A stretch of 64,000 bases of DNA from contig JAMJFS010000008.1 in NCBI GenBank assembly GCA_023544565.1, positions 1 through 64,000 of the forward strand, written 5' to 3'. The notes beneath the pieces were generated by a model. It was not told the origin of the DNA and searched no databases. It saw only the letters and a program-made list of their open reading frames with translations. The first letter of the stretch is position 1, and each line of letters starts with the position of its first letter. Of this stretch, positions 47,911 to 63,253 are shown piece by piece. The position numbers and the translations under genes were made by a program. This DNA comes from Methanosarcinaceae archaeon. GTDB lineage: Archaea; Halobacteriota; Methanosarcinia; Methanosarcinales; Methanosarcinaceae.

Positions 47911-47974
47911 CAAGTAAATATTCACTTTGTTCGCATTAACTTGGACTACATAATCTTATAGATTATATACTATA
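47911..47974 (-). repeat. Two-hairpin dispersed repeat, copy E
   Basis: First hairpin ATAATC/GATTAT; second AATGC-GA-AC, loop AAA, GT-GA-ATATT (partly decayed) then CTTG. It lies 12 bases after the stop of the winged-helix gene, in the same orientation. Confidence 0.83.
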
Positions 47975-61242: not shown

Positions 61243-61419
61243 ATGGCTCAAGTAATGAATGAAAATATTGAAAAACTTATACAATACATAGCAGATGAAT
61301 TACCACACGGGTGCAAGGATATCAAATGTTATCAGTGTTCTTTAAGTGTAAATTATGGTGCTAATAAGCATTTGTGCGAGACAATGAAAATGTTAGCCGG
61401 GCGCAGATCTAAACTTTGA
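61243..61419 (+). CDS. Small four-cysteine peptide, putative radical SAM substrate
   Basis: A 58-residue protein: an acidic, helical first part (MNENIEKLIQYIADELPHG) like a leader, then a cysteine core with C24, C29, C32 and C45, and a basic tail. It resembles the methanogen Cys-rich peptides I recall as the TIGR04165 family, encoded next to radical SAM enzymes of TIGR04083 type; such an enzyme lies 490 bases downstream on the same strand. ATG 61243 with GGAGA upstream is preferred. A zinc-binding role is the alternative. The modification is inferred. Confidence 0.7.
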   Translation: MAQVMNENIEKLIQYIADELPHGCKDIKCYQCSLSVNYGANKHLCETMKMLAGRRSKL

Positions 61420-61766
61420 TCCTTACGTAAACAGAGTCATTTTTATTTTGATATTTCAGTTCAAATAAATCTGTTACAGGCATTAACCTGAACTTTTTGT
61501 TTATTTATTTTAATTGGATAGCAGTGCCTATGTGCCGTGCGAGCGGAATGAAGATTTGTCAGCAGGTGTGCGGGCGGGGTGCTTTTTAAAATATTTACGT
61601 ATTTTTAAGTTAGGGTTTGAAGGATGTTTACTATAGTTACATTTCAGATGTAAAATATTCGTCAAAAAAATGTATTGCTCAGACATAGTTACAATGTTGT
61701 TAAATAAATCTCAAAAATTCCACAGGAAAACTATTAAAACCATTACTACTTTGGAAAACCCACAAT

Positions 61767-61826
61767 CAAGAAAATGCTCACTTTGTTCGCATTAACTTGG
61801 ATTACATAATCTTATAGATTATATAC
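61767..61826 (-). repeat. Two-hairpin dispersed repeat, copy F1
   Basis: On the minus strand: first hairpin ATAATC/GATTAT; second AATGC-GA-AC, loop AAA, GT-GA-GCATT within CAAG/CTTG. Fully paired outside the invariant GA/GA and TT/TT positions. Confidence 0.88.
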
Positions 61827-61890
61827 AACGATAAAATTCTCCCCTAAGGTCGAATTAACCCAACGCACATAATTTTACAAATTATATACA
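61827..61890 (-). repeat. Two-hairpin dispersed repeat, copy F2
   Basis: First hairpin ATAATT/AATTAT; second AATTC-GA-CC, loop TTAG, GG-GA-GAATT. The element ends 20 bases before the radical SAM gene, overlapping its promoter or leader. Confidence 0.82.
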
Positions 61891-61910
61891 TTAAAAATGG
61901 AGATACCCCA

Positions 61911-63092
61911 ATGTCCTTCCACGTAATGATAATCCCTACATTAGGCTGCCCATCCAATTGTAAATACTGCTGGAGTTCCGAAGAAGATTCACCGGTAATG
62001 ACTACTGAGACCGTTGAAGATATAGTTAAATGGCTTCAAAACTTCCGCAAAGAACCGGTTACTTTTACTTTCCATGGCGGGGAACCGCTGCTTGCCGGTG
62101 CGGACTTTTTCCGAAAAGCTCTGCCAACACTGGCTGATGGGTTGCATGAACAGGGAATTGCTTTTGCTTTGCAGACGAATCTGTGGAAAATGACCCCTGG
62201 GATCGCACAGATACTGGCGGAATATAATATCCCGATCGGTTCCAGTCTGGACGGTCCACAGGAACTCACCAATTTCCAGAGAGGGGAGGGATACTACGAA
62301 AAGACCATGGCAGGATATGAGATTGCTAAAGCCAATGGTCTCAATGTTAGTTTCATATGTACCTTTACATCCCATTCAGTAAAATTCAAAGAAGATATTT
62401 TCAAATTTTTCCTTGATAATGGTTTAAATCTTAAATTACATCCAGCACTACCATCCTTACGCGATGATAACCCTGAAAAATGGGCACTTCCTCCTGAAGA
62501 ATATGGGGAATTGTTAGTTTATCTTCTTGACCAATACCTGAAAAACCTGAACCGCATACAAATGATGAACATTGACAACCTCTGTCAATGTTATTTCGGT
62601 GGCAGAGGCACAGTATGTACTTTCGTAGATTGTATGGGAGATACTTTCGCAGTAGGACCAGATGGTAGCATATACCCTTGCTATCGTTTCGTAGGCATGC
62701 CAAAATACGTAATGGGTAATGTTCGTGACCAGCCCACCGTAGAAGATCTTGCAAAGTCTGAGCCATGGAAACTCATGTTCCAGTTCAAAGACTACGTGGA
62801 CAAGGAATGCGGAGATTGTACACATATCAAATACTGTAGGGGTGGATGCCCCTATAACGCCATAGCACCGACAGAAGGCGAAGTAAAAGGTGTTGATCCA
62901 CACTGCATCGCATACAAGAGGATATTCGAAGAGATCGTAGATCAGGCAAATGAGGAACTATTTGGCGGCGGTGCCGGCTCAGGCCCTGCGATGTTTGGCT
63001 TTGGAGGAGGAGCCCCATCTGCACCGAGTGGAAAAGCAGGAATAATGGATATTGTACGTAAACACTCCACACCGGATGAAGTGCAGTATTAG
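61911..63092 (+). CDS. Radical SAM/SPASM peptide-modifying enzyme
   Basis: A 393-residue radical SAM enzyme with a SPASM-type C-terminus. The SAM cluster cysteines are in CPSNCKYCWSSEE (near residues 13-20), followed by FTFHGGEPLLAG. Late cysteines in GSIYPCYRFVG, KECGDCTHIKYCRGGCPYNA and HCIAYKR bind auxiliary clusters, as in enzymes that alter cysteine or other residues in ribosomal peptides or sulfatases. A Gly-rich stretch ends the protein. The neighbouring Cys-rich peptide is the natural substrate candidate. GGAGA lies seven bases before the ATG. Confidence 0.88.
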   Translation: MSFHVMIIPTLGCPSNCKYCWSSEEDSPVMTTETVEDIVKWLQNFRKEPVTFTFHGGEPLLAGADFFRKALPTLADGLHEQGIAFALQTNLWKMTPGIAQILAEYNIPIGSSLDGPQELTNFQRGEGYYEKTMAGYEIAKANGLNVSFICTFTSHSVKFKEDIFKFFLDNGLNLKLHPALPSLRDDNPEKWALPPEEYGELLVYLLDQYLKNLNRIQMMNIDNLCQCYFGGRGTVCTFVDCMGDTFAVGPDGSIYPCYRFVGMPKYVMGNVRDQPTVEDLAKSEPWKLMFQFKDYVDKECGDCTHIKYCRGGCPYNAIAPTEGEVKGVDPHCIAYKRIFEEIVDQANEELFGGGAGSGPAMFGFGGGAPSAPSGKAGIMDIVRKHSTPDEVQY

Positions 63093-63190: not shown

Positions 63191-63253
63191 CAAGAAAATC
63201 TTCGCTACGCTCGGATTAACTTGCACTATATAATTCTATAAATTATATGCTAT
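63191..63253 (-). repeat. Two-hairpin dispersed repeat, copy G
   Basis: First hairpin ATAATT/AATTAT; second AATCC-GA-GC, loop GTA, GC-GA-AGATT within CAAG/CTTG (one unpaired position). It lies between the radical SAM gene end and the purL end. Confidence 0.85.

Follow-up and report, generated by a model that had tools for sequence, protein, structure and literature searches.

The window analysed here, a stretch of 64,000 nucleotides from a Methanosarcinaceae archaeon, contains near its end two genes on the same strand, one for a small protein with four cysteines and one for a radical SAM enzyme (Table 1). Both open reading frames are as described in an earlier note on this DNA, which had taken them for a peptide and its modifying enzyme in a methanogen. 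The word methanogen is a loose one in this case, as the genome shares its genus with the ANME-3 genome HMMV, that is, with an anaerobic methanotroph clade within the Methanosarcinaceae.

Table 1. Features of the locus, with positions counted from the first letter of the window.
Feature	Position	Strand	Remarks
Gene for Cys4 small protein, 58 aa	61243..61419	+	Real gene, not TIGR04165
Conserved element upstream of the enzyme gene	61724..61769	+	AGGAAAACTATTAAAACCATTACTAC...; BLASTN, alignments
Palindrome, 24 bp	61803-61826		TACATAATCTTATAGATTATATAC
Palindrome, 24 bp	61866-61889		TACATAATCTTATAGATTATATAC
Gene for TIGR04083 radical SAM/SPASM enzyme, 393 aa	61911..63092	+	Proposed McrA aspartate desaturase
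C-terminal part of the enzyme, residues 350-393	62959-63089		Region of the family end motif
Further copy of the palindrome	63230-63246		TACATAATCTTATAGATTATATAC
Further copy of the palindrome	47947-47970		TACATAATCTTATAGATTATATAC

The assignment of the enzyme to family TIGR04083, which the earlier note had suggested, is borne out by a profile search, with a score of 671.7 bits across model positions 1-376 against a curated cut-off of 300. Pfam Radical_SAM and SPASM are matched as well, in agreement with the radical SAM motif and the SPASM-type cysteines that had been pointed out from the letters. The ligands of the SAM cluster are arranged as C13-x3-C17-x2-C20, and the auxiliary-cluster cysteines are C236, C241, C257, C300, C303, C309, C313 and C332; all of them are invariant in 22 TIGR04083 members. 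The family entry itself (rSAM_pep_methan, a hypothetical equivalog), which the enzyme matches at full length over its 376 positions, is described by NCBI only as a 'peptide-modifying enzyme'. Here, we propose McrA as its specific protein substrate.

At the C-terminus, a Gly-rich linker is followed by a tail at ca residues 376-386 (GIMDIV), in which Met379 is invariant. The family as a whole ends in the motif GIMxLMxK after a variable Gly-rich linker, and residues 378-384 of the present enzyme are predicted to form a helix apart from the main fold. As a guess, this tail might play a role in folding or in substrate docking.

The predicted model of the enzyme (pLDDT 82.8) has anSMEcpe as its nearest structure (E 4e-24, TM 0.76/0.83), which makes anSME (TIGR03942, PDB 4k36-4k39) the closest known fold. 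In anSME, a Cys or Ser side chain is oxidised by hydrogen abstraction and electron transfer to the auxiliary clusters. The same eight auxiliary-cluster cysteines are found in the present enzyme, and a two-electron oxidation of a protein side chain is proposed for it too. However, its score against TIGR03942 is 179.9 bits, which does not reach the cut-off of 349.45, and the proposed substrate is a different one. Furthermore, Tyr258, invariant in the 22 members, aligns with the anSME aspartate after the YPC cysteine, which we take to be the catalytic Asp277. With a tyrosine in place of this residue, the TIGR04083 enzyme is not an anSME.

The small protein has its cysteines at positions 24, 29, 32 and 45, i.e. 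in the pattern C-x4-C-x2-C-x12-C, and ends in ...AGRRSKL. It is carried by three of the seven genomes of its genus, and in all three the gene is divergent from one for a metallo-beta-lactamase-fold protein. The two orthologues (L036/G001 and G002) are 78-84% identical to it and preserve the four cysteines, the frame and the start, with dN of 0.06-0.13 against dS of 0.33-0.53. This conservation, with dN/dS below 1, indicates a genuine gene rather than a chance open reading frame. Two distant homologues occur in genome G030, neither of them close to TIGR04083; their cysteine spacing is nearly identical, with the C-x4-C-x2-C part and the fourth cysteine 12-13 residues further on. No Pfam, NCBIfam or PHROG family was matched by the 58-residue protein. 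The cysteine pattern would suggest, as a guess, that it possibly binds a metal; its AlphaFold model has a pLDDT of 64, which is too low to assess a metal site.

The membership in TIGR04165 that had been suggested for this protein does not hold. The NCBIfam search returned zero matches at E 0.1, the family cut-off of 60 bits was not reached, and its own genome has no TIGR04165 member above the cut-off. Proteins of TIGR04165 (methano_modCys) are similar in that they are small and contain cysteines, and in Methanobacteriales their genes immediately precede TIGR04083, but they have two CxxC zinc-ribbon knuckles in place of the pattern given above. We have also considered a phage protein, and rejected this option as IMG/VR and phage records hold no relatives and the homologues show weak PHROG similarity only. 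One weak match to the peptide turned out to be a fragment of a different gene.

Between the two genes, the element upstream of the enzyme gene is maintained in ANME-3 relatives regardless of the sequence further upstream, and a shorter match to it, AAACTATTAAT, occurs in many Methanosarcinales. We infer that it is probably the core promoter of the enzyme gene. The intergenic stretch from the metallo-beta-lactamase-fold gene to the enzyme gene is a hot spot for insertions (L036:2088-4749, L038:3113-4264). Two of the palindromes are found a short way upstream of the enzyme gene, and an operator common to both genes was considered. The palindrome is, however, a dispersed repeat, with 41 sites in the genome at up to two mismatches, where the reversed control gave 0, and no copy was seen upstream of the peptide gene.

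In other genomes, the company of TIGR04083 is MCR and Mmp10, and not a precursor peptide. In Methanolobus, the gene follows the mcrBDCGA operon, and in the Methanolobus-type cases L058, L077, G009, G022 and G033 the end of mcrA lies 159-478 bp upstream of it on the same strand. Methanothrix harundinacea (L067) has mcrG, mcrA, mmp10 (on the opposite strand) and TIGR04083 in this order. At two further Methanothrix loci (L080, L088) the immediate upstream neighbour of TIGR04083 is mmp10, in the same orientation. Linkage with mcr or with MCR maturation genes is thus found in Methanolobus and Methanothrix; in many genomes TIGR04083 does not adjoin mcr. Methylation of an arginine in McrA is the established function of Mmp10 (NCBIfam name; PMC7581889). 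Mmp10 (TIGR03278) and MgmA likewise belong to the radical SAM enzymes; both modify McrA and may be encoded near mcr. They are, however, cobalamin-dependent methylases, whereas TIGR04083 is a SPASM protein with two auxiliary clusters, for which a dehydrogenation is proposed. No universal small-ORF partner of TIGR04083 emerged in Methanosarcinales from a clustering of 1923 small ORFs, and a small zinc ribbon was present near it at two loci only.

Nearly all biological methane is produced by MCR, which also consumes a large part of it, and the modifications in its active site are thought to tune the enzyme. Didehydroaspartate has been found in M. marburgensis, M. barkeri and M. acetivorans (PMC9081873) and in ANME-2c and ANME-2d (PMC12413448), and is absent from M. 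wolfeii, M. kandleri, M. formicicus, M. thermolithotrophicus, M. shengliensis, ANME-1 and Ca. Ethanoperedens (PMC9081873/PMC12413448). The enzyme responsible is listed as unknown in reviews (PMC7581889, PMC8070964).

To compare this pattern with that of TIGR04083, three genomes (G666, G673 and G039) were assigned to organisms by exact identity of their McrA to PDB chains. The two McrA proteins of G673 are those of 5a8k and 5a8w (550/550 each), the latter of which we take to be an M. wolfeii structure. The former is given for M. wolfeii in a table of PMC9081873, and the modification is absent from this organism (Table 1 of the same paper). The TIGR04083 gene of G673 was found to have an in-frame TAG at a Tyr codon, where TAC is present in the seven remaining Methanothermobacter genomes. 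This stop is the third codon past that of the last cluster cysteine, and 39 residues, including the conserved tail, are lost. Being located after the last cluster cysteine, it might leave a shortened enzyme with activity, and the TAG could also be an assembly error. G666, with the McrA of M. marburgensis (1hbm/3pot), has an intact TIGR04083 gene, and here the modification is present (PMC9081873, Table 1). G039 has the McrA of Ca. Ethanoperedens (7b1s, 485/485 over the matched part); no TIGR04083 was detected above the cut-off in this genome of one contig and 94% completeness, and the modification is absent there as well.

The control genomes of M. acetivorans and M. jannaschii contain one TIGR04083 gene and none, respectively. 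Methanosarcina species carry the gene, as do ANME-2c-like and ANME-2d-like genomes, which belong to families with the McrA closest to the ANME-2c and ANME-2d structures; for ANME-2 and Methanococcales the evidence is at the level of family or order. In all tested taxa, the presence, absence or disruption of TIGR04083 agrees with that of didehydroaspartate, M. shengliensis, M. kandleri and ANME-1 being left out of the comparison; the M. shengliensis McrA was not found among the McrA genes examined. In M. marburgensis the target motif GYDLQDQC comprises Gly445, Asp450 and Cys452; the McrA of the window's genome has this motif too, with the aspartate at position 471. The aspartate is conserved in every McrA checked, even where it is unmodified, as in M. 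wolfeii and Ethanoperedens, so that the variation would be explained by the presence of the enzyme and not by that of the residue.

Taken together, the family, the fold, the linkage and the matching distribution lead us to infer that TIGR04083 is most likely the enzyme making didehydroaspartate in MCR, by desaturation of McrA Asp450 (Asp471 in ANME-3). We put the probability of this assignment, of both residue and chemistry, at roughly three in four. That M. wolfeii lost the function through the nonsense mutation belongs to the same reading and appears likely to a similar degree. A literature search returned no paper that names TIGR04083 or assigns an enzyme to didehydroaspartate; most subscription papers were outside this search, and an earlier publication is possible.

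In the proposed mechanism, the enzyme would act in the maturation of MCR and bind the McrA segment GYDLQDQC, presumably ahead of folding and assembly. The 5'-deoxyadenosyl radical would then abstract one hydrogen from the aspartate located between the thioglycine and the often methylated cysteine, that is, Asp450 in M. marburgensis and Asp471 in the ANME-3 McrA of the window's genome. The second electron would be delivered to the auxiliary Fe-S clusters of the enzyme, and with two hydrogens removed the product would be a Calpha=Cbeta double bond, i.e. didehydroaspartate. Such a desaturation requires the same two-electron outcome as the anSME reaction.

Three other assignments have to be weighed against this one. 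In the earlier note the two genes of the window were read as a RiPP system, in which the 58-residue protein would be the precursor and TIGR04083 the maturase acting on its cysteines. The genes are indeed neighbours with the same orientation in the window, the peptide and its four cysteines are conserved, and TIGR04083 is related to RiPP maturases, but the linkage is not conserved in relatives, which is what the note itself had named as evidence to the contrary. Other genes stand between the peptide and the enzyme in both relatives that retain it: a three-gene HpaII-type restriction-modification island (HpaII-type restriction endonuclease, C5 methylase and Vsr) in L036/G001, and another ORF after the peptide in G002. 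At locus L038 a Fic gene occupies the peptide's spot, and at L039 no peptide homologue was found in the 5 kb upstream of the enzyme. The peptide is missing from most genomes with TIGR04083, while G030 (75% complete) has the distant peptide homologues without a TIGR04083 above the cut-off. Moreover, the gap in the window is 491 bp and the enzyme gene retains its own upstream element, and the neighbouring genes that were examined included neither a transporter nor a protease. A RiPP system at this locus is thus highly improbable, and the peptide is best read as a separate small cysteine protein that is unrelated to the enzyme and not its substrate. The pairing of TIGR04165 with TIGR04083 on which the note had drawn is real in Methanobacteriales, but the peptide of the window has no part in it. 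TIGR04165 is directly upstream of TIGR04083 in these archaea, among them all eight Methanothermobacter genomes, and ends only a few bp before it in Methanobrevibacter, so that TIGR04165, or another small cysteine protein, could be the substrate instead of MCR. Against this, a search of 295 genomes from the window's phylum, in which TIGR04083 is common, gave no TIGR04165 above the cut-off, and the member tested resembles a plain zinc ribbon (Pfam Lar, Zn_ribbon_8). It is also retained in M. wolfeii (G673) despite the broken enzyme gene, and an accessory or adaptor role would fit equally well. We regard a substrate of this kind as quite unlikely.

The remaining option is that TIGR04083 acts on MCR at another residue or subunit, or on another MCR-associated protein, since the linkage to mcr and mmp10 alone does not name a residue. 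However, thioglycine, methylarginine, methylcysteine and methylglutamine already have assigned enzymes, methylhistidine is universal, and 6-hydroxytryptophan is absent from M. marburgensis, which carries TIGR04083. Didehydroaspartate alone varies in step with the gene and is therefore the only one of the listed McrA modifications to fit its distribution, which leaves a different MCR target unlikely.

If the assignment to didehydroaspartate is correct, the McrA of ANME-3 is predicted to carry didehydro-Asp471, and SPASM chemistry would gain the desaturation of aspartate, in a central metabolic enzyme. It would also be relevant to building active MCR in other hosts. A named candidate gene makes the question of didehydroaspartate testable. 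As a word of caution, the name of a 'peptide-modifying' family can direct attention away from a housekeeping substrate.

Some further observations were made on TIGR04083 loci. Besides G673, one of the seven remaining Methanothermobacter genomes has a broken TIGR04083 gene, split by a frameshift (L302, G671:C1:69500-75500). The frameshift may be either real or a sequencing error; an unmodified McrA Asp450 is predicted from it. Among 60 related genomes, only 29 have TIGR04083 above the cut-off, and several complete ones are without it; from such genomes, organisms with an unmodified McrA aspartate are predicted. At L015 (G009), TIGR04083 is closely followed by a partial duplicate of the mcrA C-terminal part, at 1139-1635 after the enzyme start. 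Finally, in Methanobrevibacter (L101-L115) a second small cysteine protein (MICDDCKHLELRNKYKIVCKV...) is encoded right after the enzyme gene.
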